DNA of 42,334 nt from Planctomycetales bacterium (lineage in GTDB: Bacteria; Planctomycetota; Phycisphaerae; SM23-33): positions 1-42,334 of the forward strand of contig JAUWNJ010000028.1 in NCBI GenBank assembly GCA_030612725.1. Direction: 5' to 3'. Position 1 is the stretch's first letter. The number at the start of each line of letters is the position of its first letter. Under the pieces are notes generated by a model. The model made no database searches, had not been told where the DNA came from, and saw nothing but the letters and a program-made list of their open reading frames with translations. Below, one piece after another: positions 5,937-39,490 of the stretch. The position numbers were made by a program, and so were the translations under genes.

Positions 5937-6002
5937 CCGGCTACTAACCACTATTTCAAAGCAGGCTGGACGGACCGGTCGGTAGCGGAATATACTCATG
6001 TC

Positions 6003-16685: not shown

Positions 16686-16725
16686 TTGGCAAATAGCTCG
16701 CGCTTTTATCGAAAGGGAACGATCT

Positions 16726-18054: not shown

Positions 18055-18203
18055 GAGGGAGCGGGTTATCTGTCGGCACGACTGGTCAGGCCCGTTCCAG
18101 GTAGCAAACGACATCCCCGGCCATTGTATTTGCATTGAGTTTATCTGTAAAATACTTCCTGTTGCAATGACTTAGCGGGTCTGAAGAAGATGGGAAATGT
18201 GTG

Positions 18204-19836: not shown

Positions 19837-20061
19837 CCGTGCTCCAGAACTATTGCTTTTTTATTTCCCATTCCCTGAAACATTCCCCTCTTTCCTGCGT
19901 CTATACTAAAGGCGGGATTGTACGCGGAATTACCGAAGGCTGCGCGGGATGGCTGCCGGCAACATCGTAACGGAACATTCGTCCGCCTGCGGTGTTAGAT
20001 AAGGTACATACAATAAGTAAGAAGGTCGGAATAATCGCAAGCCGATTTGGGGTTTGGCTGT

Positions 20062-21868: not shown

Positions 21869-23059
21869 ATGCCGACATTTGAATATACAGCCAAGGACGC
21901 CGACGGGCGTGAATGTAGCGGCGCGATGCAGGCAGAGAGCGAATCGGCGGTCGTCCGCTCGCTCGATGAGCAGGAATTGTTTCCGGTGCAAATCGCCGCT
22001 CAAACCGCCGGCGCCGGCCACACCGGCAGGCGGATAAAACTCCGCGCGCTGTCGGGGGTCTATAGCCAGCTGTCCGACCTGCTGACCGCCGGCGTTCCGA
22101 TGCTGCGGAGCCTGGAAATTCTCTCGCAATCGGTCGGCAACAGTCGCCTGGCGAATGTTATCGAGAATGTGCGAGACGGCGTCTCCGGAGGCAAGACGCT
22201 CGCCGAGGCGATGGGCGAGCATCCGAAGGTTTTCAGCGATCTGCACGTCGCGATGATCCGCGCGGGCGAGCACGCCGGATTCCTCGAAGAAGCCCTTGCC
22301 AACCTTTCGGAGTTTCTTGAGAGGCAGGACGAGTTGCGGTCCAAGGTCCGCGGCGCGATGATTTATCCGATAGTCCTGGCCATTGTCGCCGTTGTCGCCG
22401 TCAGCGGGCTGTTGATATTCCTGGTACCGAAATTTCAGAATTTCCTCGGCGGCACCGACCTGCCGTTGCCTTCGCGGATGCTCTTTGCGCTTTCGGACGT
22501 GATGCGGAACCATTGGCTGATGATGCTGGGCCTGCTGGCGATGATGGTTTTATTTATTCGCGCGTGGATTCGCAGCGACAGCGGACACCGCTTATGGGCG
22601 AACTGGCAGATGCGTATCCCGCTGGCGGGGCGTGCGATCCGCCTGGTTGCCATAACACGCTTCTGCCGGGTGCTTGGAACCATGCTGCACAACGGCGTAC
22701 CGATTATTCAGGCATTGACGATCTCCAAAGACGCCGTCGGTAACGAAAAAATCGCCGAAGCCGTCGAATCAGCAACCGAAAACGTCCGCGCCGGCGAACC
22801 ATTGGCCGATCCGTTGCGACGAAGCGGACTGTTCGACACGGAAATAATAGAGATGATCGCCGTCGGCGAAGAGTCGAACCAGTTGGAAAAAGTCCTCCTG
22901 ACCACAGCCGACGCGGTCGAGCGACGAACAAACCGCCAGGTGGACGCCGCAGTGCGACTCATCGAACCGCTGATGCTGATAATCATGGCCGGCGCCATCG
23001 GGTTCATCGCATTGGGACTTCTCTCGCCGATCTTCGCTATGGCAAAAACGATAAAGTAA
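21869..23059 (+). CDS. gspF: Type II secretion inner-membrane platform GspF
   Basis: This 396-residue protein has the GspF/PilC layout: a short N-terminal beta region (MPTFEYTAKDADGRECSG), then two homologous cytoplasmic T2SSF helical domains (about 70-190 and 270-390) and three TM helices (about 165-190, 215-240, 365-390). Conserved wording includes LLTAGVPMLRSLEIL, GEHAGFLEEALANL in the first domain and GEESNQLEKVL in the second. It sits in the inner membrane, interacts with GspE, and helps turn ATP hydrolysis into pseudopilin extraction. There is no clear ribosome site; an 8-bp mini-satellite abuts the start. Confidence 0.95.
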   Translation: MPTFEYTAKDADGRECSGAMQAESESAVVRSLDEQELFPVQIAAQTAGAGHTGRRIKLRALSGVYSQLSDLLTAGVPMLRSLEILSQSVGNSRLANVIENVRDGVSGGKTLAEAMGEHPKVFSDLHVAMIRAGEHAGFLEEALANLSEFLERQDELRSKVRGAMIYPIVLAIVAVVAVSGLLIFLVPKFQNFLGGTDLPLPSRMLFALSDVMRNHWLMMLGLLAMMVLFIRAWIRSDSGHRLWANWQMRIPLAGRAIRLVAITRFCRVLGTMLHNGVPIIQALTISKDAVGNEKIAEAVESATENVRAGEPLADPLRRSGLFDTEIIEMIAVGEESNQLEKVLLTTADAVERRTNRQVDAAVRLIEPLMLIIMAGAIGFIALGLLSPIFAMAKTIK

Positions 23060-23150: not shown

Positions 23151-23609
23151 TTGAAAAGGCAACTGATAACCAAGCCGGGCTTTACGCTGATTGAGGTCCT
23201 TCTGGTAATGGTAATTCTGGCCATGCTGGCCAGTGTGGCGATCGTGATGTTCTCCGGAACCGAAGAAGGCGCCAAGATCGACACGACCGAACTGAAACTT
23301 AAAGCAATCGAAAAGGCGCTGGGCCTCTACAACAGCCACATCAAGCACTATCCGACCGAAGAAGATGGCGGACTCGAAGCGCTGCGGAAAAAGCCTTCAG
23401 ACGAAGATATCGCCAAAAAGTGGCGAGGACCATATCTCACCGAAGCACCGAAGGACGCATGGGACAAACCGTTCCATTACGAACCGGTTGACTCCGAAAG
23501 CAGCGAGAGTTCCGGTGGTAAACCCTATAAACTGTGGTCCGAAGGTCCGGATAAACAAAGCGAAACAGATGATGACATCAGGAGTTGGTCAGAAGAATAC
23601 ACTGAGTAA
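23151..23609 (+). CDS. gspG: Major pseudopilin GspG
   Basis: This is 152 residues from TTG 23151, with AAAGGAA upstream. The prepilin leader MKRQLITKPG is cut before FTLIEVLLVMVILAMLAS, giving Phe+1 and Glu+5. The mature body shows the GspG signature GLYNSHIKHYPTEEDGGLEALRKKP and a C-terminal loop, WRGPYLTEAPKDAWDKPFHYE, that usually binds calcium. It is the main subunit of the pseudopilus. It starts 91 bp after gspF, and its 3' end overlaps the likely gspH start. Confidence 0.95.
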   Translation: MKRQLITKPGFTLIEVLLVMVILAMLASVAIVMFSGTEEGAKIDTTELKLKAIEKALGLYNSHIKHYPTEEDGGLEALRKKPSDEDIAKKWRGPYLTEAPKDAWDKPFHYEPVDSESSESSGGKPYKLWSEGPDKQSETDDDIRSWSEEYTE

Positions 23610-24183
23610 TGAGCCGTCTCTACCGGCGACGGAAACAGGTTTTACGCTCCTGGAGATGGTCCTTGCCATTGCGCTGGTGGTTATGCTGTCGGGCGTTTTT
23701 ATCGTAGTTTTCAGCGGTTCGCTGTCAAAGGCACAAACCGACGCCGCCGGTGAGCGCATCGCTTCACTGCTGAGGTCAACCCGCGCCGAAGCCGCCCTCG
23801 TCGGACGACGCTTCCGCCTGACTTTTGATACCGACACTGACCAACCAATCGTTACAATCGAACGCGACGGACTTGGTGAACCTGGCGCCTTTACCGCTTA
23901 TAAGGCATGGTGGATAGAGCAGTCGCTCCTGCCCGAAGGTATTACCGTTTCGGCCTGCGAACTCAGCGGCGAGAACACGCCGGACGAAACGGACAAACTC
24001 GAAACCGACGAGCAGGACAGCCTGGATGAAATAACATTCATGCCCGACGGGTCGAGCGACTCTGCCAGAATAGTTCTCACAAGCGACGAGAAGGAACATC
24101 CCTGGGCCGTCGAGATTACGCTCAACGGAATAGATGGAACGATAACAACCCGTGAAATCGACATTGAAGAAATCGAAGAATAA
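23569..24183 (+). CDS. gspH: Minor pseudopilin GspH-like
   Basis: This protein is 204 residues if it starts at ATG 23569 (23572 also possible), inside the end of gspG. A CTG at 23602 is a less likely start. The frame continues further upstream, but only as antisense-like overlap. The leader ends ATETG, cut before FTLLEMVLAIALVVMLSGVF, a class III prepilin cleavage site with Glu+5. The globular part contains RSTRAEAALVGRRFRLTFD, the GspH/FimT-like region. The acidic middle (TPDETDKLETDEQDSLDE) is unusual. It is a low-abundance pilus-tip or shaft subunit. The 3' end overlaps gspI by 32 bases. Confidence 0.85.
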   Translation: MMTSGVGQKNTLSNEPSLPATETGFTLLEMVLAIALVVMLSGVFIVVFSGSLSKAQTDAAGERIASLLRSTRAEAALVGRRFRLTFDTDTDQPIVTIERDGLGEPGAFTAYKAWWIEQSLLPEGITVSACELSGENTPDETDKLETDEQDSLDEITFMPDGSSDSARIVLTSDEKEHPWAVEITLNGIDGTITTREIDIEEIEE

Positions 24184-24580
24184 AACCGGTATAGTCCTGC
24201 TGGAGGTCATAATAGCGACGACGTTGTTCGTTGTCGCAGCGGCGGTAATCGGTTCGGCTGCGCACAGTTCGATGCAGGAAACTGCTGATATGCAGCGAAG
24301 CGCACAGGCCGTCAATATCGCCCGGTCCATCCTGGCAGAGATGGAAATCGGCCAGGTCGAAATTGTCGATACGTCCGAAACCCCCTGCGAGGACGACGAA
24401 GACGAAGGATGGACATATACAATCACCACCGAGGACGTCGCCGACGACGCGCCGGGGCTTAAGAAAGTTACCGTCGCCGTTACCGATTCCGACTCGTTTC
24501 GTCCCCATACGTATCACCTGACACAGTGGATTCTCGACCCCGCCGCCCTTGCCGAACAAACCGGGGAAACCAGACCATGA
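24152..24580 (+). CDS. gspI: Minor pseudopilin GspI-like
   Basis: This is 142 residues from GTG 24152. The leader MKSTLKKSKNKTG is cut before IVLLEVIIATTLFVVAAAVIG, with Glu at +5. The body is short with an acidic stretch (TPCEDDEDEGWTYTIT) and fits the small GspI family, which starts the pseudopilus tip with GspJ and GspK. The order H-I-J-K is the standard one. The stop overlaps the gspJ start (ATGA). Confidence 0.88.
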   Translation: MKSTLKKSKNKTGIVLLEVIIATTLFVVAAAVIGSAAHSSMQETADMQRSAQAVNIARSILAEMEIGQVEIVDTSETPCEDDEDEGWTYTITTEDVADDAPGLKKVTVAVTDSDSFRPHTYHLTQWILDPAALAEQTGETRP

Positions 24581-25356
24581 AACCGGCAAATCCGCAATCC
24601 GCAATCCGCCGTTCGACTCCACTCACGGCCCTGAGCCTGTCGAAGGGCAATCCGCAATTGAAAGGTTTTACGCTGCTGGAGGTATTACTGGCGGTATCGC
24701 TGGTGATTATGCTCTCGGGGGGGATATACGCCTTCTACGGATACACGCTTGGAAGCCGCGAGCAAATCGACACCGAGAGCCAGACCATCTTCGCCCAGCG
24801 GCGTGTCATGGACCTGCTGGCAGGAGAAATCCTCTCGGCCCGGACGAACATGCAATGCGCCGGCGATGAAGTCTCCTTCATGCGAACCGCCGTACCGGGC
24901 AAGGCGGTCTTCGAGACGCAGAACATCACCGAGTCGCCCTCAATCGCCTCCGATAAAACAGGTCCGTCGCCTTTCGGTCCCCAACACGACATCCAATTTA
25001 TCTCATACCGCCTGAACCACTACGACGACGAGAACGGCGTCGAGCAAATCGGCGGACTCGAACGCACCTGCCTGAAAAACATCAAAGCCAAAGTCGTCGT
25101 CGAAGGCGAAGACGTCGAGGTGATGTTCCTGACTGAGCACGTCAAATTCATTCGCCTGCAATACTGGGACGGGTCGGAATGGCAGGATTCCTCGTCAAGC
25201 ACGAATCTCCCGCAGGCGATCCGCATCAGTCTGGGGACCAAACCGCTCCCGGACGACACCGCCGTCGAGGATTACCCGTTCGAGACGGTCTCTCGCGTGG
25301 TGGCCATCCCAGCCGGGGCGAGTCAGGCCCAAAACAAACGCGGAGGACGAAGATGA
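24577..25356 (+). CDS. gspJ: Minor pseudopilin GspJ-like with repeat-derived leader
   Basis: This is 259 residues from ATG 24577 (ATGA overlap with gspI). The cleavage site is QLKG before FTLLEVLLAVSLVIMLSGG. The leader is unusually long (30 residues) and is encoded by AATCCGC repeats plus a 37-bp REP-like hairpin, giving MKPANPQSAIRR, STPLTALSLSKG and NPQLKG. The mature part (about 230 residues) includes QRRVMDLLAGEILSARTNM and a C-terminal beta region, consistent with GspJ. It is translationally coupled to gspK. Confidence 0.87.
   Translation: MKPANPQSAIRRSTPLTALSLSKGNPQLKGFTLLEVLLAVSLVIMLSGGIYAFYGYTLGSREQIDTESQTIFAQRRVMDLLAGEILSARTNMQCAGDEVSFMRTAVPGKAVFETQNITESPSIASDKTGPSPFGPQHDIQFISYRLNHYDDENGVEQIGGLERTCLKNIKAKVVVEGEDVEVMFLTEHVKFIRLQYWDGSEWQDSSSSTNLPQAIRISLGTKPLPDDTAVEDYPFETVSRVVAIPAGASQAQNKRGGRR
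24611..24647. repeat. REP-like hairpin inside gspJ leader
   Basis: TTCGAC (24612-24617) and GTCGAA (24639-24644) flank CTCACGGCCCTGAGCCT. The GAGCCTGTCGAAGGG wording is a widespread dispersed element. Copies of CAATCCGC lie on both sides, as if the element had landed in the AATCCGC array. Confidence 0.8.
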
Positions 25357-26750
25357 ACCGTGGAACGGTAATTGTGATGGTGCTGGTGATAGTGGCGATG
25401 CTCTCGCTGGCGGCGGTCGGGCAAATGCTGGTCGTTCGCAGCGAGTCGGGTGCAGCCGAAGCGTCACGGGATGGACACCAGGCACGCGCAGCGGCAATGA
25501 GCGGTATCCACCGCGCAACGGCGCTTCTGGCAGCCGAACCGAATAACTACCAGGCTCGCACCGACAGCCCCGAAATCTTCCAGGAACAACTCGTTACAGG
25601 CGATGCCGAAACAGGTTGGTACTTCACCGTCTTTGCCGGCGACACATCCGATAAGTCCGGCGCATCCGTTCGCTACGGCGTCGAAGATGAGGCCGGTAAA
25701 ATCAACATCAACACCGCCTCGGCAGAAACGCTGGCGGCTCTGCCGGGAATGACCGACGAACTTGTCGATTGCCTGATAGACTACCGCGACCGCGACAAGG
25801 AAACCCGCCAGTCCGGCGCTGAGCAGGACTACTACGACGCCCTGCCGACGCCCTACCGCATCGCAAACGGGTCGCTGAGAACGCTGGAAGAACTGCTGCT
25901 GGTAAAAGGCTTCACCGGACCGATCGTCCTCGGCGAAGACGCCAACTTCAACGGCCAACTGGAACCGAACGAGGACGACGCCGATGAGACCTTTCCGCCA
26001 GACGACGGCGACGGGCAACTTAATCGCGGCATGAGGCCTTTCGCCAACGTCATCAGTTATGAACCGAACACCGACAACGAAGGCAACGAGCGAATTAATA
26101 TCAACAGGGAAAAACCGGACAGCCTGTCGGAAAAACTCAAAGAGGCCGGTTTCGGCGAGGATACTGTGAATTTTCTCAAGGCTGCTCGCGAGGCCGAGGC
26201 GAATTTTACCGATCCGTCACAATTGCTGGGGATGAAACTGGAAGTTGAAGATGATAGCGGTTCTCGTCCGCGTGGCCGGCGAGGACGGTCCGTCAGCGGT
26301 GAAAAAACCACCATCGAAAGCGGAGTGGACGCCGACAACCTGCCGCTGGTAATGGACAAACTGACCATCGGCGGAACCAAACGCGACGGGCGGGTCAATA
26401 TAAACAGCGCGCCGAAGGAAGTTCTTTCGGCCCTGCCGGGAATCGGCGAAGATATAGCCCAACAGATTGTGGACACCCGCGACAGCCTGGATGAACAGGT
26501 CGCCTCCACAACGGCATGGATTTATACGCAGAACATTGTTTCAGCGGAGGTGTTCAAGAAGGTGTCGCCGCTGCTGACGGCGCGGAGTTACCAGTTTCGC
26601 GTCCGGTCGTTCGGGTATAGCCTGTCGTGTGGCCGATTCTGCACGCTGGAAGCAATAATTGACACCGCTTCGGGAACGCCGAAAATAGTCTATCTGCGAG
26701 ACCTGACGCACCTGGGCGTACCGATGAGACCGAAAAGTATCGAACAATAG
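25353..26750 (+). CDS. gspK: Minor pseudopilin GspK
   Basis: This is 465 residues from ATG 25353 (GGAGG ribosome site, ATGA overlap with gspJ). The leader MNRG is followed by TVIVMVLVIVAMLSLAAVGQ without Glu+5, which is normal for GspK. Two helix-hairpin-helix-like segments define the family: KININTASAETLAALPGM (about 113-130) and VNINSAPKEVLSALPGIG (about 348-365). Insertions rich in Asp and Arg (GEDANFNGQLEPNEDDAD, SRPRGRRGRSVSGE) enlarge it beyond the usual 300-330 residues. It caps the pseudopilus tip. Confidence 0.93.
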   Translation: MNRGTVIVMVLVIVAMLSLAAVGQMLVVRSESGAAEASRDGHQARAAAMSGIHRATALLAAEPNNYQARTDSPEIFQEQLVTGDAETGWYFTVFAGDTSDKSGASVRYGVEDEAGKININTASAETLAALPGMTDELVDCLIDYRDRDKETRQSGAEQDYYDALPTPYRIANGSLRTLEELLLVKGFTGPIVLGEDANFNGQLEPNEDDADETFPPDDGDGQLNRGMRPFANVISYEPNTDNEGNERININREKPDSLSEKLKEAGFGEDTVNFLKAAREAEANFTDPSQLLGMKLEVEDDSGSRPRGRRGRSVSGEKTTIESGVDADNLPLVMDKLTIGGTKRDGRVNINSAPKEVLSALPGIGEDIAQQIVDTRDSLDEQVASTTAWIYTQNIVSAEVFKKVSPLLTARSYQFRVRSFGYSLSCGRFCTLEAIIDTASGTPKIVYLRDLTHLGVPMRPKSIEQ

Positions 26751-26764: not shown

Positions 26765-28270
26765 ATGTTGAAATTCATCCGTCGAAAACACGTTGCGATT
26801 GATTATGACCGGCGAGAGGTCAGGATGGTGGTGTTCAGGTACGTCCGAGGCCGGCCTGTCATAGTCTCGCTGCACAGGGCGGAAACTCCCGAGGGTGTGG
26901 ACCCGTCCGACGCGGTCTCGCTGGGCAAATTCATCAGGACGCTCATAGTGGATTATGGACTTGACGGCGCTCGGGCGGTGATGTGCGTCGGGCGGTCCCA
27001 AGCCGTTCTGAAGAGCATGGCGTTACCGTCCGGCGTGTCTTCAGACGAACTGGCGTCGATGGTGCAGTACCAGGTCTCCCGCGAACTTCCATTCGCCGCC
27101 GACGAGGCGGTGGTCGATTTCACCCATGGCGTTCACTGGGACACCGCCGGCGCTGAAGCCGACGGCGAAGTTACCACCGTTCTTGCAGCGGCGGTTCGCA
27201 TTCCGCTAATCGAGACTATCAGTCGAATCTGCGACGAAGCGGGATTGAAACTCGAACGCCTGGGCCTTCGACCATACGCCAATCTGCGCGCGGTTTATCG
27301 GTCTATCAGGTGCGAACCGGGCGAGAGAATTCTGCTGGTTAACATTACCGCCGACGAGGCTGAAATCGACGTGATGCGCGACGAATCGCTGGAGTTTTCG
27401 CGCTCGGCGGCGGTTACATCGCCCGACGACCAGGCAGGGCCTGACGTCCGGCGAATAGTCGCCGAAGTAACCCGCTCGATTCAGAGTTTCAACGCGACCC
27501 AACCAGGCGCGGAAATTGACGCCGCTCTCGTAGCCGGCGATACCGGACTGGAAAAAGACCTGGTCGCCGCCCTGTCCGAATCGTTGTCGGTGCGATGCGA
27601 ACTGCTCGACCCCGCCGGCGGGTTCGCCGTCCAAACAGGCGAGGCCACGTCGTCTTTTGCCGCTGCGCTTGGTCTGGCATCGACCGACATTCGCGGGGAA
27701 TCGCTTCCTTTCGATTTCATCAATCCCAAACGCCCCGCACCGCCCAAAAACACCCGGCGTATCAAGGCCATCGCAGCCGCCGCTGTTATTGTCGTCCTGC
27801 TGGGCGCAGGCGCAATCGCCGGAACATCCCGCATCAAGCACCTGGAAACCAACGTCAACACTCTGACCGGAAAAAAGAAAACTCTCCTCAAGACCAACAA
27901 GTCCCTGAAGCGGCTCCGTAAGCGTGTCAGGGCGGTCGAGACCTGGTACGACGCCGACTATCGGTGGCTTGGTCAGTTGGCGCACTTCTCGACCACGCTT
28001 CCCGAAGCGAAGGCTTTGTACCTTACCGGTCTGGACTGCTCGCCTGGCAAGGTGATGCTGACCGGGCGCGTCGCCGACAGCGAAACGGTCTCGCGCTTCG
28101 CCGAAAAACTGATGAATATGACCGGATACGAGGTCCGCCCGAAGGGGACATCGGCGGTGAGGGATAATTTCGGTTACGCCATGCAGTTCCGCCTGGAAGT
28201 GCTGATTTCGCCGGACGCAAAACCTGTCCTGGCGACAAGCCGACCGACGAAAAGCAAAGAACAAAAGTAA
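26765..28270 (+). CDS. PilM-PilN-type fusion, GspL-like platform protein
   Basis: This is 501 residues from ATG 26765. Residues about 1-325 form an actin-like PilM/GspL cytoplasmic domain (KHVAIDYDRREVRMVVFRY, SVSRELPF-type VSRELPFAADEAVVDF). A TM helix (about 333-352, AIAAAAVIVVLLGAGAIAG) follows, then a coiled coil and a PilN/GspL-like ferredoxin-fold periplasmic domain (about 400-490, LTGLDCSPGKVMLTGRVAD). In type IV pili PilM and PilN are separate; here they are one chain, as in GspL. It recruits GspE to the membrane platform. Confidence 0.85.
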   Translation: MLKFIRRKHVAIDYDRREVRMVVFRYVRGRPVIVSLHRAETPEGVDPSDAVSLGKFIRTLIVDYGLDGARAVMCVGRSQAVLKSMALPSGVSSDELASMVQYQVSRELPFAADEAVVDFTHGVHWDTAGAEADGEVTTVLAAAVRIPLIETISRICDEAGLKLERLGLRPYANLRAVYRSIRCEPGERILLVNITADEAEIDVMRDESLEFSRSAAVTSPDDQAGPDVRRIVAEVTRSIQSFNATQPGAEIDAALVAGDTGLEKDLVAALSESLSVRCELLDPAGGFAVQTGEATSSFAAALGLASTDIRGESLPFDFINPKRPAPPKNTRRIKAIAAAAVIVVLLGAGAIAGTSRIKHLETNVNTLTGKKKTLLKTNKSLKRLRKRVRAVETWYDADYRWLGQLAHFSTTLPEAKALYLTGLDCSPGKVMLTGRVADSETVSRFAEKLMNMTGYEVRPKGTSAVRDNFGYAMQFRLEVLISPDAKPVLATSRPTKSKEQK

Positions 28271-28428
28271 ATATCGAAATACGAATGTCGAAATACGAAA
28301 CAATATCGAATGATTCAAATTCGAATTCTCAAAACGTTACTGACGTCTAAACCGGAATATCAATGCAGTTGTTTGAAACATTTGAATTTAGGATTTTGAA
28401 TTTGTTTCGTATTTCGTATTTCGATATT
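28270..28428. repeat. Long imperfect inverted repeat between platform genes
   Basis: Arm 1 (28270-28303) begins AATATCGAAATACGAATGTC. Arm 2 (28402-28428) is TTGTTTCGTATTTCG followed by TATTTCGATATT, its reverse complement minus 7 bases. The A/T-rich inside also pairs partly. It is related to the MITE-like element at 14794-14903 and interrupts an otherwise tight operon. Confidence 0.8.
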
Positions 28429-28510
28429 CGAATTTGAATGAGCGGAGAATGTTTTTTTAGACAATAATGTTTTCGATAAGCACAAAACCAGCCTTTCGGG
28501 ATAGTTCTAA

Positions 28511-29605
28511 ATGAATCGACGGGAGAAAATCCTCGCTGTCGTGGTCGGCTCGATACTGGGCGTGGCGATTCTTTACGGCTTGATAAACCGCATGGTGCTG
28601 TCGCGCGGGCGGGAACTGTCGGACCAGGCGCGCTCGATTGGAAAAACCGTCAAAAATCTGGAAGCCGAGAACATGCGACTTACCCGATACCGGGGTCTGT
28701 TCGCCGATTTCCGCGATCGCTCGTTCGACGACAACCCTCCCCGCGCCAGCGTATTGGCCGATACCACAATCAAGCAACTTGCCAAACAGGCGGGGCTGGG
28801 ACAGTCCGACTACACCGTCGGAAGTTTCGCCGAACGCCGCGAGGCAAAGGCATACCGCGAACTGCTCTGCACGATCACCGGAACGTCTTCGCTGGAACGC
28901 ATTACCAATTTCCTCTACCTGCTGGGACGGGACACGCACCTCCATCGTATTACCCATCTTTCGCTCAAGCGTCGCGCAGAAGGTAAGGGGCGAACAAAAG
29001 TGTCCTTTTCGCTGCGATATTCGACGCTGGTGTTCTACGGAAACATTCCGGTATCCGTTCCGTCAAGGTTCACTGCGACCAATCCGGCTGAAGCGGTCGG
29101 ACTGAACACGCCGGAGCGGGAAATCTATAATGTAATCGCCTCACGGGACATATTCAGCCCTTATGTGCGTCCGGTAGTCCGGCACAGGCCCGCCCCCCGG
29201 CCTCAACCGCGCACCCAGCCGGAGCTGCCGACGCCGCAGTTCGGGCGGCTCGTTGTAACGGGTCTGCCCGCCGTCGCCGGCAGGCAGGAGGTGCATGTTG
29301 CGATACCGGGTCAGGACATAGAAAAGGTATTAAAAGTCGGCGACTCTCTGGAAATCGGTAAAATCGTGATGGTCGATTATCGCCTGATGCCGATGCCGGG
29401 AAAACCACACTTGATTTCTCAGAGCAGAGTGATTCTAAAAGCAGGAAAGAACTACTGGGCAGTCGAGCGGGGACAAAGACTCGACCAGCGGCGTTTGCTC
29501 CGCCCGGAAGAATTGCCGGAAGAACTCAGGACACCACCGGCATCAACCCAGCCGACAACCATGCCCAATACGGTAGAAATAACGGAAACTAAAAAAACCT
29601 CTTAA
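28511..29605 (+). CDS. PilO/GspM- and GspC-like platform protein
   Basis: This 364-residue protein has a single N-terminal TM helix (about 9-28, AVVVGSILGVAILYGLI). A coiled coil (about 35-65) and a PilO/GspM-like domain (about 75-170, ITNFLYLLGRDTHLHRITHLSLKR) follow. A second part begins NVIASRDIFSPYVRP, the phrase typical of GspC/PilP homology regions that contact the secretin, and ends in a Pro-rich tail. It probably bridges the inner-membrane platform to the secretin. The assignment by region is inference. It is the gene immediately before the secretin (18-bp gap). Confidence 0.7.
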   Translation: MNRREKILAVVVGSILGVAILYGLINRMVLSRGRELSDQARSIGKTVKNLEAENMRLTRYRGLFADFRDRSFDDNPPRASVLADTTIKQLAKQAGLGQSDYTVGSFAERREAKAYRELLCTITGTSSLERITNFLYLLGRDTHLHRITHLSLKRRAEGKGRTKVSFSLRYSTLVFYGNIPVSVPSRFTATNPAEAVGLNTPEREIYNVIASRDIFSPYVRPVVRHRPAPRPQPRTQPELPTPQFGRLVVTGLPAVAGRQEVHVAIPGQDIEKVLKVGDSLEIGKIVMVDYRLMPMPGKPHLISQSRVILKAGKNYWAVERGQRLDQRRLLRPEELPEELRTPPASTQPTTMPNTVEITETKKTS

Positions 29606-29623: not shown

Positions 29624-32600
29624 ATGTTCACGCAACAAAGGATTGAAGCGGCGTTAGCAATTACTTTGGTGTTGTTGCTTTCCTCGGCGGCCGTCGGTGA
29701 AACGACCACCGCCCCGGCAGCGACGACCAAACCGGCAGCCACAACCGAACCTGCTGCCGAAACCAAACCCGCAGCCAAACCGGAAGTTACCACCGAACCT
29801 GCGATAAAAACCGCTCCGCCGAGCGTCAAGCCGCCACAGACTGAACCGCCCGTGGCAAGCCCCTCGACTTCGCTCGGGACAGGCAAAGTCAAACCACCTG
29901 TGGTGAGCGAAGTCGAACCGGCCAACATCCGCTTTCAATTCGAGGGGGAAACTTATCGCGACGTTGTGCGATTCATCTCGCGAGCAGCCGGAAAACCCGT
30001 CATCGGCGACCTGAAGCCGATTGAAGGGACGCTGACCTACTTCGACGCCAAGCCGTACACGTATCCCGAAGCGATCGGCATCGTCAATCAGTTCCTGCAA
30101 CTTCGGGGCTTCACCCTTATGGAGACGAACAGGTATCTCAAACTTGTTCCCCTCAAGGACGTCGCCCGTCAGGGCGATCTGCCGATCGTTCACGCCGGTC
30201 TGGACGTCGAACCACGCCGCAGGGGCGAGCAGATTGTAACAACTATAATCCCGCTGCATTACATCGACGCCGCCGACATTATTGACGCAGTCAAGCCGAT
30301 GATCCATTCCTTCGGAACGGTCAGCACCATGGGCAAAGGAAAGGGGAAAGGCATCATCATCACCGATTGTATCGGCAACATCCGCCGGATACAGAGGTTG
30401 CTCTCGGCCATTGACAAAGGTTCACTGGCAGAGCAGCAATTGAAATACTATCGCCTCAAAACGGCGTCTGCGACTGACGTAGCCAATCTGATTAAGCAAT
30501 TGTTCGCAGCGCCGAAGAAACCGACCACCCCTCAGCGTCGTTTCGTCGGGAGCCGGACCCGCCGACGAGCGGTACCAGCCCCACAGGCCCCCGCCGAAGC
30601 GCCCGACACTCCCGTAACCGTCGCCGCCGACGCCCGCTCAAACACCGTTATCGTAATCTGCTCGCCCTACAAGCACGCCATAATCGCCGAGTTAATCGCC
30701 AGCGTGGACGTTGACAAGCCGGCAGATGCCGAGACAAGCATCATTCGCATCGTCAAATTGAAAAACGCCAAGGCCGCCGATCTGGCCAAAACAATCATAG
30801 CAACGGTCGGAACGAAGATAGTTACCGTAACGAATCCCAAGACAAAAAAAACAATGACACAAAAAGTGCCTCTGGCGCAGGTAATGGCGGACGTCGCCAC
30901 CAATCGCCTGGTAATCTCGGCATCGCCCGACATTATGAAGAAAATTGAGGGGATAATCACCGAGATAGACGCCGACGCCGTCCAGGCCGGCACCATCCGT
31001 ATCTTCGCCCTGAAGCACGCCAAGGCAGAGCAAATCGCACCGACGCTGCAACGGATTTTCTCTCCTCAACAGAGACGAGGTCGGCCCGCCAAAGCGATGA
31101 CCTTCCCGGTTACCATCGTCGCCGATAAGCGAACAAACAGCCTCGTTGTCAGCGCCACCGCCGATGATTTCGCAAAGGTCGAGCGGATGCTCGCGAGCCT
31201 CGATGTCAAGCCGGCCGACGAGGCCAAGATACAGATCAGGTCTTACGCCCTGATCAAAGCCAATGCCAAGGAAGCGGCCAGATCGCTTTCGCGACTCTTT
31301 GCCTCGCAGAGAGGTCCGAAGACCGAGCCGCAACCCAGGTTCGAGGCCGAATCAAAGTCCAATCAATTGATCGTCGCGGCCACCGCCGAGCAGTTCGAAA
31401 CAATCGACAAACTCATCAAGCAGATGCAGACCGTTACCAAATTGACGCTGCAAATGCGGATTTTCCAACTCAAGTACGCAAGGGCCGAAGAAATAGCCCA
31501 GGTGCTGGAGAAGATTTTCCAGCCAAAAAAAGAACAGACACGCGACTGGTGGGGTAACGTAGTCGGTCAACCAGGTGAAAGTAAGGTCCGCATAGCCACC
31601 CAGAAGAAGGCCAACGCGGTGATTATCCAGGGTTCCCCGGAGGCGATCGCCTTCGCCGAGCAGATAATCAAGCAGTTCGACACCGAGACCGTCTCTGATA
31701 TCGTCATCGAGATCGTTCCGCTGGTCAAGGCCGAGGCTGTCTCTCTGGCCAAGGCGGTCAACCAGGCATTGGCAGAGGAAGTCGAAAGCACACAAGGGTA
31801 TCGGCCACAGCCATGGTGGGGCCAACCACCTGAGCGGGACAAGGACAGGGACAAGCCCATAGTCGAGCGCGCCGTCGTCGTCCCGGAGCCTAATTCCAAC
31901 AGCCTTCTCGTCCGCGGACCTAAAGCCGAAGTCGCAAATGCAGTTGCGCTGATAAAGCGTCTTGACGCCGGCGGCGCCGGTACAGGCGCACAGGTGCGAG
32001 TCTTCGCCGTCAAACACGCCGAGGTAGGCCGGCTTAGCAAAACCATCGAGGTGCTGTTCGAGCAGATAATCAGCCAGCAGCGTCGTCGTGGGCGGAGTAA
32101 TCGCGACGCCCCCGCCCCGTCGTCGTTCAGTATCGCCGCCGACGAACGGACCAGTGCGCTTATCGTCTCGACAAGCCCCGCCAATTTCGCGGTGGTCGAG
32201 TCGCTCATCAAGCAACTGGACGTGAAAGAAAACGTGGCGATGCGACAGATGCAGTACACCCCGCTGCTGCACGCCGACGCGTTCAAACTGGCGGGGAGAA
32301 TCGACGCGATGTTCGCCGACCGCAGAAGGTCCGACCAACCCCTCATCGAGGCAGACACGCTGGGTAACGGACTGACCATCGTCGCCAAAGAAGCCGACCT
32401 CAAAACCATCGAGACAATCATCGCCAAGGCCGACGAAGCCGCTAAAGAAAATTACATCCAGGTTCGCGTTGTCCCGCTCTGGCCTGAAATTCGGGCAGAA
32501 AGAATGGCCGAAATTCTCAAAAACGTCTATGAGCAGGTCAGCGGAAACGAAGTGGAAATCACCGACAAGTTGCCGAAACGCTCGACCGAAGGCGACTCGA

Positions 32601-35600
32601 AAGACCTTTTCATGCTCGAAGCGCCGGCCGATCCGCCTGCAATCGGCCCCTCGACTTCGCTCGGGACAGGTAAGGTCGAACCGCCTGCCGAACCGGCGAC
32701 TCAACCCGGAAAAACACCGACGGAAAAACCTCTCAAAGCGAAGGATAAAACTTCGTCGAAACCTCCGGTCATTATTGCCGTAGATAAGGCCTCCAATTCG
32801 CTGATAATTTCGGCATCACGGGCGGAACTGGACAACATCGAATTGCTGATCTGGAACCTGACGATTAACGCATCGACCGGCGAGGCCGAGATGAGGGTCT
32901 TTAAGGTCAAAAACGCCGATCCCGTCTTCATCGTCAAGACGCTCAACGCGCTGGTGAACCCGAAATCCGCCGCCCGGGCGCCTCGCCCGACAAAAAAGAC
33001 GGACAAGAAAACCCAACCAGCGCCGGCTCCGACCAAATCCGTCGCCACTATCGTCGCGGACGTTCGGACGCGCAGCATCATCGTCCGCGCGAAGCGGGTG
33101 GAAATGGACCTGATCGAAACGCTCATCAAGCAACTGGACACCCCCGCGAAGGTCGTTTCGATCGTCAGGATTTTTGCCCTGAAGAACACCGACGCCGTCG
33201 AGGTCGCCGCCAATCTGCGCGAACTTTTCGGACTGTCGGGCCCGACGGCGAAAAACGCACGCGGGCAGGAATTCAGTCGTCGGCTTCTGGAGATACAAAA
33301 GGCCGGCGGCGCCGGTGGAGTGGACACCTCGTCGGGAGTAACAATATCGTCCAACAAAACGACCAACTCGGTAATCGTCGCAGCCCCGGCCGAAGCAATG
33401 GAACTTGCAGCGAGGTTGATTGAGGAACTTGACCAGGCCCCGGTAGTCGGTGCGACGGAGGTGAGGATATTCAAGGTCAAAAACGCCGACGTAACGGAGG
33501 TGGCCGAAGCCGTAAGCCGCCTCTTCGCCGGTCAGCGGGCCGCGGTACGGCGGCCAGGTCGCAGAGGACAAGCCGCCGATAAGGGCGTGGTCGTAACGTC
33601 GAACGAACGTCGGAGGATAGTGATAGTATCGGCCCGCGCCGACGAAATGACCCTGGTTGAAAAGGTGATAACCGAACTCGACACCGTCGAAGCCGCCCGC
33701 GCAACAGTCGTAAAAGTCTATCGCCTGGATCACACCGACGCCCGCTCGGTAGCCAGGGCGCTGACGGAGACGCTGGCGAAATCCACCACAGGACAAGTCG
33801 CCGCGGCGACCATCAGGATCGCCGCCGACAGATCCGGTAACGCCGTCATCGTCCGGGCCGGACAGGATCAGCACAAACGAATCGCCGAACTCATCACCCA
33901 ACTCGACCAGACGCCACGGGCTGAACCGGCATTCGTTACCATCCGACTCGAACGCGCCGACGCGTCCGACGTGGTTACATCGCTCCGTCAGATGCTCCGG
34001 TCGTGGGGCGGAAGACGAAATCAGGTCCGCCCAACCGTCGCGTTTGACCAGGCCACAAATACGCTGATGATTTCCGGGCTGGAAAAAGACATCGAAAAAA
34101 TCACGGAAATGGTCAAGCGAATCGACCAGACAAGCCCGACCCGTCCCAACCTTCACCTGATCCAGTTGCAGAACGCCGAACCCGAGGACGTTCTCAAGGC
34201 CATTGAGCAGATTTTCGGGGGCGGTAGCGCTAATGGTGCTGCGCCCAGTCGTCGAGGCCGGTCAAGATCCGACAACAGGAGGGCGAATCCCCGCAAAGGT
34301 TCGTCGCCGCACGCAACTGCCCTTCCCGGTCAGCGGGCGCTTCTGGTGAGCGCTTCGGACAAAGACTGGGAGACGATCCGCAAGATTATCACCTCGCTCG
34401 ACGAAGCCGCCGCCGGGGCCAAACGCCTCGTGAAGATTTTCCCGCTGAACAATGCCGCCAATAATCGAGTGGCGACGGCGCTGAACAGGATGTATCGAAC
34501 AGCCGCCAGAAGTGGTAAGCCCGGAGATGTCGTTTCGGTCGTTCCGATGTCGGGAAGCAATGCCGTCGTCGTAACGGCCACAAAAGACAAGATGGACGAG
34601 GTCGCCTCGCTGATAAAGCAACTCGACGACGTCAAAATCGCCGGAAAGATGCAATTCCGACTTTTTGGTCTGACCAACACCGGCGCGACGAAAATCCTTC
34701 CGTTGCTCCGCCAGATGATCCGTCCGCTCCAGCAGGCCCGTCCGGGTCAGCCGATTAACATAAGCGCCGACCAGCGCGCCAACGCGATTATCGTTACCAC
34801 TCAATCGCCCGTGATGGACGAGATCGAGCGGATCATCAATCTCCTGGATAAGGCCACGCCTTTCAAGACGGCCGATGTCGCGATTTTCCCGTTGACCAAC
34901 GCCGACGCGCCGGCCTTGGCGGCGGTGCTGAGCAACATACTCACCCCCGGAACCGTAAGGGTTCGCACGCCCGAGGCCCGGGCGCTGCAGGAGCAGGTTC
35001 GCCTCCTCCGTATGCGCAAGGGCGCTGAAGCATTGCCCCTGCTGGACCTGTCCAAGCCAATCAAGATCAGTTCCGACCCCGCCAGAAGCGGTCAGAACGG
35101 ATCCAACAGCCTGATCGTCTCTTCGACTCCGGACAATATCAAGGCGATGGGCGAGATTATCGCACTCCTGGACACCATGCCGATAGCCGCAGGCGTCAAA
35201 CTCAAGATGGTTCACCTTGTCAACTCCGACGCCATCAGCGTGATGACGCTGCTGAGGAGCATTTTCACCCAAGGCCCGCGTCTTGCGGGCAGAGCAGGAA
35301 CGCCGGTAGCCGGAAAGGCCAGACCGGAAACTCTTACCGGAGAGGCGCTGACAGGCGTGCTGAACATAACCGCCGACGCGCGAACCAATACGCTCATCCT
35401 GGCGGGTAGCGCCGAGACGCTGACTCTGGCGATGCTGATAGTCAAAGACCTCGACCTCAAACCTCCGAGTGAGTTCACACAAGTCAAACTCTTCAAACTC
35501 GCCCACGCCGACGCCGGGCGTCTGGCAGGGCTTATTCGCGCGGTCTTCGCCGAGCGCCCTTCGGGCGTACCCGGAGTGGCGGGCGCAAGGGCGTACGTTA

Positions 35601-38600
35601 CGAAACTGCGAATGCTCCGCGAGAGAAAACTACCCGTCCAGACCGACGTAGCCCGCTCTTACCCGACAATGGTCGTCCAGGCGGAACCTTCGGCCAACAT
35701 TCTCATCGTCGCAGCCCGGAGCGACCTGATCGGCATTGTCGCCGAGATGGTCGCAACGATGGACATACCCGGCGCGGGCGCGATGAACGTCGTGCGAATT
35801 TATCCGCTCAAAAACGCCGACGCGACGCGGACTGCCAACGTTATTGAAAAGTTGTACACCGGACCGAACGCCCGGCTTATCCGTCCCGAAGACCGCCCAA
35901 CTATCAGCGTCGATACGCGGACAAATTCATTGATAGTTGCGTCCTCGGACAAAACGTTCGCTATGATCGATTCGCTGCTGGGAAAACTGGACGCCAAGTT
36001 GCCCATAGAACTCCGCGATATACGCCTGCTGGGACTGGAAAACGCGGATGCAGCCTCTTTGGCGACGACTTTGCAAAAGATGATGGACGCCCGCGTGAAA
36101 CGGCAGCAATCACTCGGCGTCGGCGACGCCGAAGCACTGCAAATGCTCATCATTCCCGATGCGAGAAGCAACTGCCTCATCGTCGGAGGCTCGGCCGAAG
36201 GGTTCAAACTCGTGGCCGACCTGGCGAAGCAACTGGATTCGGCGGCTCCGGCATTGAGCGGGAAGATACAGTTGATTACGCTGAAAAACGCCAACGCCGG
36301 CACACTCGGCGCAACGCTCAACAATCTGTTCGATCAGCGTTACAGCGCCGCCCGAACGCCGGAACTCCGTCGTCAGAAACCGGTTATTGTCCCGGACCTG
36401 CGGACCAACCTCCTGATGGTGGCGGCAAACCAGGACGACAGCCGGATCATCGCGTCGCTGGTGGGCAAACTGGACGCAAAACCGGTAAGCCCCGCCGTCG
36501 AACTGGCGGTTATCGCACTGAAGTACAACGACGCCGGAACCGTCGGGCCGATGATCCAGCGGGTATTCGCCGACCGTCTCAAGGCGATGACCCCTGCCGG
36601 TCAGCAGGCAGTACCTCAAGACGTCGTCTCGGTCGCCGCCGACGCGCTGGGTAACGCGTTGATTATCTCGGCCAGTAAGGAAAACCTGCAACTTGTCCGC
36701 TCTCTCGTGGCGAAGGTTGACCTGGCTCCGCCGACGGAGACCGGCGTTGTCAGGATTTATCAACTCAAGCACGCCGACGCCCAGCGTGTCAGCGGGATGC
36801 TCGATGCGCTGGTTCAGAAGGGTTTGTACAAGCCCGGCCTGGTGGGCGCCGCCGACAACGCCATCGCCCGTGCGCGCGAGAAGGTTTCCATCGCCTCCGA
36901 CGCTCGCACCAACGTACTGATAATCTCGGCCAGCAGGGAAAATTTCGCGGTTATCGAGCAGATTATCGGCAGGATCGACACGAAGGAAGGCTGGGGTCTG
37001 GCCGGGGCCGTCAAGGTCTATGTCCTCAAACACGCCGACGCCGCCCGTTTGGGTCCGACACTTCAGCAGATGTTCGACCGCAAACGAGCCGCCGAAGCCG
37101 CTACCGGCGGTCAACCACGGTCGCTTCCGGTGGTAATCATCCCCGACGAGCGAACCAATTCGCTTCTGGTCGCTGCCGGGCGCGAAAACGCCGCAGCAAT
37201 GGACGCGCTGGTTACCAGGCTGGACATCGCCGAGGTCGCGCCGACTTACGATTTCCGTGTATTTTACCTGAAGGAGGCCTCGGCAGCGGCGCTGCAACCG
37301 ACGTTGAAGCAACTCTTCGCCCAGCGCGCGACTCGCGGACCCGCAGCGTCGGCCGTTACCGTAATCGCCGACCCGAAAACGAATTCGCTTATCATCGGAG
37401 CGGCAAGGGACGAATTGACCATCGCAGCCGGTCTTATCGCCCGCCTGGACAAGCCCGTCCCGGCGGCGGGACAGGCATTCAAGGCTTTCTCGATTATCAA
37501 GGCCGATGCGGCAGAACTGGCGAAGACACTCAAGCAACTCTACGAAGACACCAAGCCAACCGGCGGCGACACCGGAATGGCGATAACCGTGGATGAGCGG
37601 TCCAACACGATTCTCGTCGCCGCCGCCAAGGTCGATATGAAAAACATCGCCGAGATGGTCAAAAAACTCGACACCGCCCCGGTAACCGACGTAACGGAGA
37701 TACGGATTTTCACGCTCCGACACGCCGACGCCAAACAACTCGCGACGATACTCACCGACGCGCTGACCAACAAGCCCAAGCCATTAACTACCGTCTCGCC
37801 CAACCGCGCGACGCTTCTGCGGTTCATCGCCAATAGCCCCGAAGGAAAGCAACTGATGTCGTCGGCCCTGAAAGCCGGCGTGATGATTACCGCCGTACCG
37901 AGGACTAATTCGTTGCTGGTCCAGGCGCCGGTCGAGACGATGCCGCTTCTGGCGCGCCTGATACGCGCTCTGGACAATACTGATCCGCGAATGGCTGAAA
38001 TCTGCGTCTTCACGCTGACCAACGCCGACGCGACGCAAATGGCCCGCGTGCTGACCGAACTGTTCCGCCTCCAGCAGGCCTCTGCGGACAAGCAGGCGGC
38101 ACGGTACACGATGCCGGTCTCTGCCGGCGGGGAAAAGGCCGCCGCTGCAACGCTCGGATCGGCGGAGCAGACCGCACTGACCATCACCGTCGATCAGCGG
38201 ACCAACTCGCTGCTGGTCGGCGGGACGCGGGAATACATCTCACTGGTCGGGCGGGTTATCAGCCAACTGGACGCCTCGCCGGCAGAGGATCGGCATACAC
38301 TGGTTTATCGCCTCCGAAACGCACAGGCAGTCGATATCGAGAAGGCGCTGACGTCCTTCCTCGACCAGGAGCGCCGGCGGGTAGTCGCCACACTCGGCGC
38401 AGACGCCGTCGGAGCGGCAAAGGCGCTATTGGCAAGGGAAGTCGCCGTAGTGGCTGAAGCCACCTCCAACACGTTGCTCATCTCCGGGTCGCCCCGATTC
38501 TTCAAGACCGTTACCGCAATGATCCGCGAAATGGACCAGCCGCCGCCACAGGTGCTGGTGCAGGTGCTGCTGGTCGAGGTAACGCTCGACGACACGATCG

Positions 38601-39490
38601 ACTTCGGCGTGCAGTGGTCGCACCTGGGCAAACCCGGCACAGATGAACGAACCAGGTCGCAGACACAGTTCGGTATCACCGCCGGGGCGACAGGATTCAC
38701 CTTCAGCCTCACCGGCGGAGACCTCGACCTGCTGCTGAGGGCATTGCAGACACAGGGGCGGACGGAACTCCTCTCGCGCCCGCAAATCCTCGCTTCCGAC
38801 AACCAGGAAGCGCAGATTAACATCGGTCAGCGAGTCCCGTTTATCACCGCCTCGCGCACCACCGACACCGGCACGATTAATACCATCCAGTATGAACCGA
38901 TCGGAATCATCCTCAACGTTACTCCGCACATCAACCCGGACGGATTCATCAAAATGGAAATCAACCCGGAAATCTCGTCGTTGAGCACTTCTTCGGTTCA
39001 GATAAGCGAGAACGTCAACGCCATCATCATCAATAACAGGTCCGCCAAGACCACCGTTACGGTGCAGAACGGGCATACCATCGTCATCGGCGGACTGATC
39101 ACCAGCAGGGACGAAAAACGCGAAGAAAAGATCCCGTTCCTGGGCGACATCCCCATCATCGGGCACCTCTTCAAGAACACCCGCCACGTCAAGGAAAAGA
39201 CCGAGTTGCTGATTATCCTGACCCCGCGCATACTGCGAACACCGTCTGAAGCCGACGTGCTGACAGGACAGATGATCAGAAGGCTCCCCGCGAAAACCAT
39301 TCACGCGGATGAATCCTTCGGCGGATTACTGAACCCCTTGCGAGATTTTTCGCCCACGGAGATCAAGCGGCTTAAGGATGCCGCAATTATGAAACCCGCT
39401 CGCAGCGGACCGGTCATTATTCCAATGACCCCCACCGACGAAAAGAAAGATAACTCGCAGAAAAAGTGGACAAACGGGAAAGATATATGA
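29624..39490 (+). CDS. gspD: Giant GspD-like secretin with about 32 N1-type modules
   Basis: This 3288-residue secretin compares with about 650-750 for ordinary GspD. Order: signal peptide (about 1-25); a Thr/Ala/Pro linker; an N0-like domain (about 101-176, FEGETYRDVVRFISRAAGKPV); about 32 consecutive Secretin_N (N1-type) modules (about 200-2972, averaging 87 residues, counted by eye); then the secretin barrel (about 2973-3200, with VPFITASRTTDTGTINTIQYE and IPFLGDIPIIGHLF) and a tail. Each module reads like VRIFxLKxADA, a helix, a variable Arg/Pro loop, VTIxADxRTNSLIV, then a helix ending LIxxLD. No stops or frame shifts appear, and the modules are diverged, not recent copies. It forms the outer-membrane channel. 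REP-like inserts lie at 29864 and 32647. Confidence 0.95.
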   Translation: MFTQQRIEAALAITLVLLLSSAAVGETTTAPAATTKPAATTEPAAETKPAAKPEVTTEPAIKTAPPSVKPPQTEPPVASPSTSLGTGKVKPPVVSEVEPANIRFQFEGETYRDVVRFISRAAGKPVIGDLKPIEGTLTYFDAKPYTYPEAIGIVNQFLQLRGFTLMETNRYLKLVPLKDVARQGDLPIVHAGLDVEPRRRGEQIVTTIIPLHYIDAADIIDAVKPMIHSFGTVSTMGKGKGKGIIITDCIGNIRRIQRLLSAIDKGSLAEQQLKYYRLKTASATDVANLIKQLFAAPKKPTTPQRRFVGSRTRRRAVPAPQAPAEAPDTPVTVAADARSNTVIVICSPYKHAIIAELIASVDVDKPADAETSIIRIVKLKNAKAADLAKTIIATVGTKIVTVTNPKTKKTMTQKVPLAQVMADVATNRLVISASPDIMKKIEGIITEIDADAVQAGTIRIFALKHAKAEQIAPTLQRIFSPQQRRGRPAKAMTFPVTIVADKRTNSLVVSATADDFAKVERMLASLDVKPADEAKIQIRSYALIKANAKEAARSLSRLFASQRGPKTEPQPRFEAESKSNQLIVAATAEQFETIDKLIKQMQTVTKLTLQMRIFQLKYARAEEIAQVLEKIFQPKKEQTRDWWGNVVGQPGESKVRIATQKKANAVIIQGSPEAIAFAEQIIKQFDTETVSDIVIEIVPLVKAEAVSLAKAVNQALAEEVESTQGYRPQPWWGQPPERDKDRDKPIVERAVVVPEPNSNSLLVRGPKAEVANAVALIKRLDAGGAGTGAQVRVFAVKHAEVGRLSKTIEVLFEQIISQQRRRGRSNRDAPAPSSFSIAADERTSALIVSTSPANFAVVESLIKQLDVKENVAMRQMQYTPLLHADAFKLAGRIDAMFADRRRSDQPLIEADTLGNGLTIVAKEADLKTIETIIAKADEAAKENYIQVRVVPLWPEIRAERMAEILKNVYEQVSGNEVEITDKLPKRSTEGDSKDLFMLEAPADPPAIGPSTSLGTGKVEPPAEPATQPGKTPTEKPLKAKDKTSSKPPVIIAVDKASNSLIISASRAELDNIELLIWNLTINASTGEAEMRVFKVKNADPVFIVKTLNALVNPKSAARAPRPTKKTDKKTQPAPAPTKSVATIVADVRTRSIIVRAKRVEMDLIETLIKQLDTPAKVVSIVRIFALKNTDAVEVAANLRELFGLSGPTAKNARGQEFSRRLLEIQKAGGAGGVDTSSGVTISSNKTTNSVIVAAPAEAMELAARLIEELDQAPVVGATEVRIFKVKNADVTEVAEAVSRLFAGQRAAVRRPGRRGQAADKGVVVTSNERRRIVIVSARADEMTLVEKVITELDTVEAARATVVKVYRLDHTDARSVARALTETLAKSTTGQVAAATIRIAADRSGNAVIVRAGQDQHKRIAELITQLDQTPRAEPAFVTIRLERADASDVVTSLRQMLRSWGGRRNQVRPTVAFDQATNTLMISGLEKDIEKITEMVKRIDQTSPTRPNLHLIQLQNAEPEDVLKAIEQIFGGGSANGAAPSRRGRSRSDNRRANPRKGSSPHATALPGQRALLVSASDKDWETIRKIITSLDEAAAGAKRLVKIFPLNNAANNRVATALNRMYRTAARSGKPGDVVSVVPMSGSNAVVVTATKDKMDEVASLIKQLDDVKIAGKMQFRLFGLTNTGATKILPLLRQMIRPLQQARPGQPINISADQRANAIIVTTQSPVMDEIERIINLLDKATPFKTADVAIFPLTNADAPALAAVLSNILTPGTVRVRTPEARALQEQVRLLRMRKGAEALPLLDLSKPIKISSDPARSGQNGSNSLIVSSTPDNIKAMGEIIALLDTMPIAAGVKLKMVHLVNSDAISVMTLLRSIFTQGPRLAGRAGTPVAGKARPETLTGEALTGVLNITADARTNTLILAGSAETLTLAMLIVKDLDLKPPSEFTQVKLFKLAHADAGRLAGLIRAVFAERPSGVPGVAGARAYVTKLRMLRERKLPVQTDVARSYPTMVVQAEPSANILIVAARSDLIGIVAEMVATMDIPGAGAMNVVRIYPLKNADATRTANVIEKLYTGPNARLIRPEDRPTISVDTRTNSLIVASSDKTFAMIDSLLGKLDAKLPIELRDIRLLGLENADAASLATTLQKMMDARVKRQQSLGVGDAEALQMLIIPDARSNCLIVGGSAEGFKLVADLAKQLDSAAPALSGKIQLITLKNANAGTLGATLNNLFDQRYSAARTPELRRQKPVIVPDLRTNLLMVAANQDDSRIIASLVGKLDAKPVSPAVELAVIALKYNDAGTVGPMIQRVFADRLKAMTPAGQQAVPQDVVSVAADALGNALIISASKENLQLVRSLVAKVDLAPPTETGVVRIYQLKHADAQRVSGMLDALVQKGLYKPGLVGAADNAIARAREKVSIASDARTNVLIISASRENFAVIEQIIGRIDTKEGWGLAGAVKVYVLKHADAARLGPTLQQMFDRKRAAEAATGGQPRSLPVVIIPDERTNSLLVAAGRENAAAMDALVTRLDIAEVAPTYDFRVFYLKEASAAALQPTLKQLFAQRATRGPAASAVTVIADPKTNSLIIGAARDELTIAAGLIARLDKPVPAAGQAFKAFSIIKADAAELAKTLKQLYEDTKPTGGDTGMAITVDERSNTILVAAAKVDMKNIAEMVKKLDTAPVTDVTEIRIFTLRHADAKQLATILTDALTNKPKPLTTVSPNRATLLRFIANSPEGKQLMSSALKAGVMITAVPRTNSLLVQAPVETMPLLARLIRALDNTDPRMAEICVFTLTNADATQMARVLTELFRLQQASADKQAARYTMPVSAGGEKAAAATLGSAEQTALTITVDQRTNSLLVGGTREYISLVGRVISQLDASPAEDRHTLVYRLRNAQAVDIEKALTSFLDQERRRVVATLGADAVGAAKALLAREVAVVAEATSNTLLISGSPRFFKTVTAMIREMDQPPPQVLVQVLLVEVTLDDTIDFGVQWSHLGKPGTDERTRSQTQFGITAGATGFTFSLTGGDLDLLLRALQTQGRTELLSRPQILASDNQEAQINIGQRVPFITASRTTDTGTINTIQYEPIGIILNVTPHINPDGFIKMEINPEISSLSTSSVQISENVNAIIINNRSAKTTVTVQNGHTIVIGGLITSRDEKREEKIPFLGDIPIIGHLFKNTRHVKEKTELLIILTPRILRTPSEADVLTGQMIRRLPAKTIHADESFGGLLNPLRDFSPTEIKRLKDAAIMKPARSGPVIIPMTPTDEKKDNSQKKWTNGKDI
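29860..29916. repeat. REP-like hairpin inside secretin, copy 1
   Basis: TCGACTTCGCTC (29864-29875) and GAGCGAAGTCGA (29905-29916) form a perfect 12-bp inverted repeat. It is translated in frame as SPSTSLGTGKVKPP and on into the N0 linker. The first 24 bases from 29860 are identical to 32647-32670. Confidence 0.85.
32647..32682. repeat. REP-like hairpin inside secretin, copy 2
   Basis: Shares 24 identical bases with 29860-29883 and has TCGAC (32651-32655) opposed to GTCGA (32675-32679). It is translated as GPSTSLGTGKVEPP within the long loop of about the tenth N-module. Confidence 0.85.

Follow-up and report, generated by a model that had tools for sequence, protein, structure and literature searches.

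A type II secretion system secretin with 32 N1-type modules and its giant relatives in Phycisphaerae

Introduction

Textbook secretins are ring-shaped channels that have three to six modules in the periplasm, and an ordinary GspD, the secretin of type II secretion systems (T2SS), has about 600-660 aa and three N1-type modules. A type IV pilus (T4P) secretin, PilQ of Thermus thermophilus, has domains N0-N5 and forms a channel of about 35 nm in a periplasm of about 70 nm (PMC4463427). No earlier description of secretins as large as those reported here, or of giant planctomycete secretins, appeared in the literature searched, although most subscription journals and preprints lay outside that search and absence is not proof; secretins go unmentioned in the freshwater planctomycete and huge-protein literature searched.

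Here we analyse a stretch of 42,334 nucleotides (the window) from a Planctomycetales bacterium of the class Phycisphaerae (contig JAUWNJ010000028.1, assembly GCA_030612725.1), in which a T2SS operon ends in a secretin of 3288 aa. This protein resembles GspD, PulD and XcpQ (6hcg, 5wq7, 5zdh, 3ezj) in its domain order of N0, N1-type modules and barrel and in its T2SS operon, and they are its best matches in sequence and fold; whereas they have ~600-660 aa and three N1-type modules, the giant has 3288 aa and 32. It shares extra N-domains with Thermus PilQ, whose host has a wide periplasm (PMC4463427), but PilQ has six N-domains and belongs to a pilus system, while the giant is expected to form 33 rings and belongs to a T2SS operon. 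Fold, domain order and operon are thus those of GspD, and the novelty is the extreme expansion of the modules.

Results and discussion

Domain architecture

The giant secretin is encoded by a single open frame on the plus strand (29624-39490), uninterrupted by stops, which is the last gene of the T2SS operon and specifies a protein of about 354 kDa. A sequence-only reading of the window had described a 3288-residue frame with a signal peptide, an N0-like domain, ~32 modules and one C-terminal barrel, and this layout is confirmed by Pfam, by an HMM of our own and by AlphaFold2. The predicted signal peptide (residues ~1-25; 29624-29698) contains the strongest hydrophobic segment of the whole chain, with the top 17-mer at residues 9-25. 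It is followed by a low-complexity Pro/Ala/Thr/Lys linker (29699-29926), recognised from its sequence, and by the N0 domain (29927-30157). The N0 match to Pfam is weak (PF21305, E 1e-4, under the curated cut-off); the modelled domain matches the N0 of ETEC GspD (4jtm) with a TM-score of 0.81 of the target and an rmsd of 2.0.

The first N1-type module (residues about 199-267; 30218-30424) was recognised from its sequence and from its strand-helix-strand-strand-helix fold in the AlphaFold2 model. A further 31 Secretin_N (N1-type) modules, scoring 44.7 to 81.9 bits each, occupy residues 273 to 2975 (30440-38548) according to the HMM, which was trained in iterations on the modules of this protein itself. 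The total of 32 agrees with the earlier manual count of ~32, and the 30 separate stretches that Pfam assigns to Secretin_N (PF03958, 1059.6 bits) exceed the at least 25 matches that had been proposed as a check on it. Module 9, at residues about 942-1084, contains a long insertion. The chain closes with the secretin C-domain and beta-barrel (residues about 2976-3215; 38549-39268), where the one Secretin match (PF00263) covers residues 3040-3205 with an E value of 4e-53. For this part of the protein a phmmer search of the PDB returns 6i1y and 6hcg, and GspD structures lead in the PDB by both sequence and fold. The GspD model TIGR02517 scores 1150.8 bits against a cut-off of 351, a score inflated by the repeats. 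Barrel, N0, N1-type modules between them, predicted signal peptide and T2SS neighbourhood are all those of a GspD; with 32 modules and 3288 aa, the protein departs from the usual, though not defining, GspD size of about three modules and 600-700 aa.

The type II secretion operon

Upstream of the secretin and on the same strand lies a complete T2SS operon in the order GspE-F-G-H-J-K-PilM/L-PilO/M. Family profiles identify a GspE ATPase with an MshEN/c-di-GMP-binding motif (20047-21732), GspF (21869-23059), GspK (25179-26750) and a PilM/GspL-like protein (26765-28270). The c-di-GMP-binding motif of GspE (NF053729) scores 64.6 bits against a cut-off of 38, so the system may be under c-di-GMP control. 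The major pseudopilin GspG (23151-23609) scores 109.6 bits with TIGR01710, above the cut-off. A GspH-like minor pseudopilin (23632-24183) is matched by PF12019 and, from residue 91-92, by GspH/XpsH profiles; its true start is probably about 23632, since the frame that opens at 23365 overlaps gspG for its first ~90 codons. A GspJ-like minor pseudopilin (24526-25356) is assigned from a weak match to TIGR01711 (E 3e-5). The gene adjoining the secretin (28511-29605) had no match among protein-family profiles, but its position is conserved in relatives, and its TM/coiled-coil/HR-like layout, judged by eye from the sequence, suggests a PilO/GspM-like inner-membrane protein whose C-terminal region is perhaps GspC HR-like. 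A MITE-like inverted repeat of ~160 bp (28270-28438) separates the PilM-like gene from the PilO-like one and has 70 BLAST matches across the same genome (both strands, some overlapping).

The order E-F-G-H-J-K-L-M/O-D, or the fetched part of it, flanks the giant in at least 10 families (f1, f2, f5, f8, f94, f96, f101, f103, f104, f106, f109). As this order is kept beside it across families, the giant serves a T2SS as its secretin. The sequence-only reading had also considered a stalk or tube of novel function, which is not needed for a gene that ends a complete T2SS operon. Another idea is that the operon encodes a type IV pilus-like machine for uptake or adhesion instead of secretion, with a retractable pilus lodged in the long tube; the platform proteins are of the PilM/PilO type, the PilQ model also scores, and planctomycete fibres have been proposed to serve polymer uptake (PMC5394234). 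We regard this as quite improbable, because the best-scoring models are those of GspG, GspE, GspK and GspD, with GspG, GspE and GspD above their own cut-offs, and because, in place of a major pilin and the retraction ATPase PilT, the operon itself contains pseudopilins of the GspG type and one ATPase, of the GspE type.

Module divergence and conservation

The modules of the window protein share a mean identity of ~28% with one another and a maximum of about 42%, and no DNA tandem repeats were found over them, the sole one in the gene being in the short Pro/Ala/Thr-rich linker near the N-terminus. Compared with its nearest relative (G413, of the same genus and 88% identical), the gene has a dN of 0.072, a dS of 0.370 and a dN/dS of 0.19, while dN/dS for individual modules has a median of 0.13 and nowhere exceeds 0.63, indicating purifying selection on all modules. 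Reciprocal best modules are colinear between the window and its relatives in 31 of 31 cases for G413, 28 of 28 for both G302 and G326, 27 of 28 for G377 and 27 of 27 for G327; the length differences among these proteins are internal blocks gained or lost. Colinearity with the window fades in more distant families, yet persists inside those families. Conservation is in general higher in the modules close to the barrel than in those towards the N-terminus. The earlier suggestion that the expansion is old and kept by selection is borne out by the colinear orthologous modules and by these dN/dS values.

Forty loci were fetched and their modules counted with one HMM. Giant relatives have from 20 modules (G301) through 31-51 in most to 63 in G327 (L067), the longest relative at 6169 aa and about 639 kDa, and the number differs two- to threefold between related species. 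Blocks of modules within G327 are 68-86% alike, which points to internal duplication in that protein's recent past; recent repeat expansion is thus partly true for G327 and is rejected for the window protein. Secretins of other planctomycetes (G291 and G283, frames of 1364 and 1491 aa) belong to the same barrel family and have 6-7 modules by the same HMM, but they have five-fold fewer modules than the giant and lie on a separate branch of the barrel tree.

Distribution and origin

At least 75 of 397 Phycisphaerae genomes carry secretin frames of 2300-6169 aa among the matches listed, and with 20-63 modules in those counted, these are the similar giants in relatives that the sequence-only reading had named as support. 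Among 294 secretin-bearing genomes sampled over the whole phylum, frames longer than 3000 aa were found solely in the window's class, and the longest frame outside it has 1491 aa, both among the best matches listed. Some members of Phycisphaerae have short secretin frames alone among the matches listed, so the giant secretin is widespread in the class but not universal.

The window comes from a 65-contig draft genome, and this, together with the alike blocks of G327, could prompt the view that the gene is an assembly artefact or a functionless, decaying repeat expansion. We find this barely credible. Genes of equal size occur in single-contig genomes (G439, 4856 aa; G323, 4484 aa; G295, 4557 aa; G567, 4933 aa; G498, 4522 aa; G095, 4634 aa), none of the giant frames listed contains an internal stop, the window modules have diverged to 28% identity and lack DNA repeats, they are under purifying selection, and homologues exist in Verrucomicrobiota. 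Concatenation during assembly is ruled out by the single-contig genomes, the lack of DNA repeats over the modules and the low within-protein identity. Both outcomes that the earlier reading had named against itself, a small number of modules and a concatenated assembly, were checked and fail, with frames of 4484-4933 aa present in single-contig genomes.

A scan of public genomes revealed giants in records labelled Verrucomicrobia, with frames of up to 4311 aa. In a sample of the phylum Verrucomicrobiota that has no genome in common with the Planctomycetota sets, 2 of 145 genomes match at E 1e-50, the second with a short 402-aa frame; one Verrucomicrobiota family yields matches in 37 of 50 genomes, and many of the frames there are close to 4000 aa long. 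This family rules out a restriction of the giants to one lineage. In the barrel tree, the Verrucomicrobiota rows group inside the clade to which the window and other Phycisphaerae belong, with SH-aLRT support of 98% (97% for the inner clade). As the family is nested inside the Phycisphaerae tree, the simplest reading is that its giants were probably acquired by horizontal transfer, a conclusion to be treated with caution given the quick tree method and the MAG labels.

Secretins encoded by two genes

Families f103 and f104 divide the array between two neighbouring genes of the same strand (L089, L102-L107). The upstream chain, of 2384-3823 aa, has a predicted signal peptide, an N0-like start and 20-36 modules and lacks a barrel; the downstream chain, of 1435-1908 aa by frame length, has 12-15 modules and the barrel, with its own predicted signal peptide where the N-terminus is clear. 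These secretins resemble the window protein in operon, N0, modules and barrel, but are split into a module-only chain and a barrel chain, and they are described here for the first time. The cut falls inside a module, leaving its first half at the end of the upstream chain and its second half at the start of the downstream one: the tails correspond to profile columns about 20-46 in all nine pairs, and the heads to columns about 50-89 in eight of nine. When joined, the halves score up to 32.8 bits, compared with at most 1-6 bits for shuffled controls, with weak scores in G617 and G472; individual scores are modest, and the argument lies in the regular position across species. Given these complementary halves, the two chains most likely join by completing a single module between them, and the split genes would mean that a secretin stack can be cut into two chains.

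Single-chain proteins of f96 and several of f106 have an intra-module loop of ~110-410 aa, 11-15 modules before the barrel, that contains a signal-peptide-like segment (L079, L088, L078, L188, L080, L081); examples are MIRTTTIAATLPVFMMNVALQSAVAQ in G567 and SMPVFLMNVAISTGFAQ in L188. In f96 this segment sits where the f103 and f104 genes are split. Such segments may be relics of gene fusion, internal starts or cleavage sites. A module-only protein with 14 modules and no barrel was also seen in the single-contig genome G641 (L112, C1:438000-454000), distant from the barrel gene and in a frame that contains masked bases; two parts of a tube may be unlinked there.

Structure models and the proposed tube

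The AlphaFold2 model of residues 95-700 (20 sequences; mean pLDDT 76.8, pTM 0.45) shows N0, N1 and repeated strand-helix-strand-strand-helix modules, with the N-domains of PulD and XcpQ/GspD as its best PDB matches. Residues 2294-3288 (29 sequences; pLDDT 68.9, pTM 0.33) are modelled as modules and barrel, for which Foldseek finds GspD structures best. The best structural matches of both models are all secretins, GspD/PulD first. Single domains are thus good in these monomers, but the low pTM (0.33-0.45) means that the inter-module arrangement is not fixed, which keeps global TM-scores low; ring stacking accordingly comes from homology and is not itself predicted by the models.

From the observed domain content, operon, conservation, colinearity and split genes, we infer rings, a tube, its length and a path for the substrate. 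We propose, with a probability of about 0.65, that this is a T2SS secretin whose periplasmic part has been extended from ~3 to 32 N1-type modules, with the rings stacked as one long vestibule tube. Each module would most likely contribute to one ring of a homo-oligomer, of 12-15 subunits by analogy with GspD, and the rings would stack into one continuous tube. N0 would dock on the assembly platform at the inner-membrane end, the barrel would open the outer membrane, and the tube would lead the pseudopilus or the substrate through a deep periplasm. Some families would build it from two chains, exported separately and joined within one split module. If Thermus PilQ, whose six N-domains form a 35 nm channel, is taken as a guide, 33 rings at 3-4 nm each would give an estimated length of about 100-130 nm, and the largest relative could reach about 200 nm. 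A vestibule about ten times the ordinary length with one stacked ring per module, as the sequence-only reading had surmised, would best account for the short conserved linkers, the N0 and barrel at opposite ends and the split-module joint.

In favour of the tube are the single N0 and single barrel that bracket the 32 modules, the conserved operon, the secretins that head the structural matches, the colinear modules under purifying selection, the split genes, and the enlarged periplasm shown in other planctomycetes (PMC5394234). With module boundaries drawn tightly, the linkers between modules measure 2-8 aa in 92% of 1047 junctions (median 5), and module length varies mostly internally, in the loop that leads from the first helix to the second strand; uniform linkers and variation mostly inside the modules point to a regular stack rather than to beads on a floppy string. 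Against the tube we count the low-pTM AlphaFold2 monomers, the short-only secretin frames of some class members (among the matches listed) and cultured Phycisphaeraceae described without crateriform structures (PMC8882080), and the two- to threefold variation in module number would be odd if a fixed envelope distance set it. Some of this evidence would also suit a different arrangement, in which a few membrane-proximal modules form rings and the other ~28 make a flexible or fibrous skirt that binds peptidoglycan, polysaccharide or substrate as a tether or store. The AlphaFold2 models give no fixed inter-module geometry, module number ranges widely from 20 to 63, barrel-near modules are in general better conserved, and many modules carry long basic loops. 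We nonetheless think a skirt rather unlikely, because N0 lies at the far end and has to make contact with the platform in the inner membrane, linkers are uniform in length, and a split inside one module is most sensible if the chains join end to end.

Should the tube reading be true, it implies a tube of ~100 nm across the envelope, far longer than any described, and raises the question of how a distance of 100 nm or more is covered by a pseudopilus or a substrate. We put at about even the chances that these are sealed periplasmic tubes of ~100-200 nm, which would be among the longest and heaviest channels known (an estimated mass of about 4-10 MDa with 12-15 subunits), that some consist of two chains sharing one module, and that the system moved between phyla horizontally. 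The giant secretin could explain how a T2SS copes with the deep planctomycete periplasm. Its anatomy is extreme and testable, and the natural series of 20-63 modules offers a direct test of module number against vestibule length and periplasm depth.

Other features of the window

Scanning the window against Rfam and for tRNAs gave no hits. Upstream of the operon, a FecR-domain protein lies beside a protein of about 1000 aa with CHASE2 and adenylate/guanylate cyclase domains (4952-8912). A TIR-domain protein, possibly a defence gene, is encoded at 16582-17775, and a DUF3800 protein adjoins it at 18201-19013.
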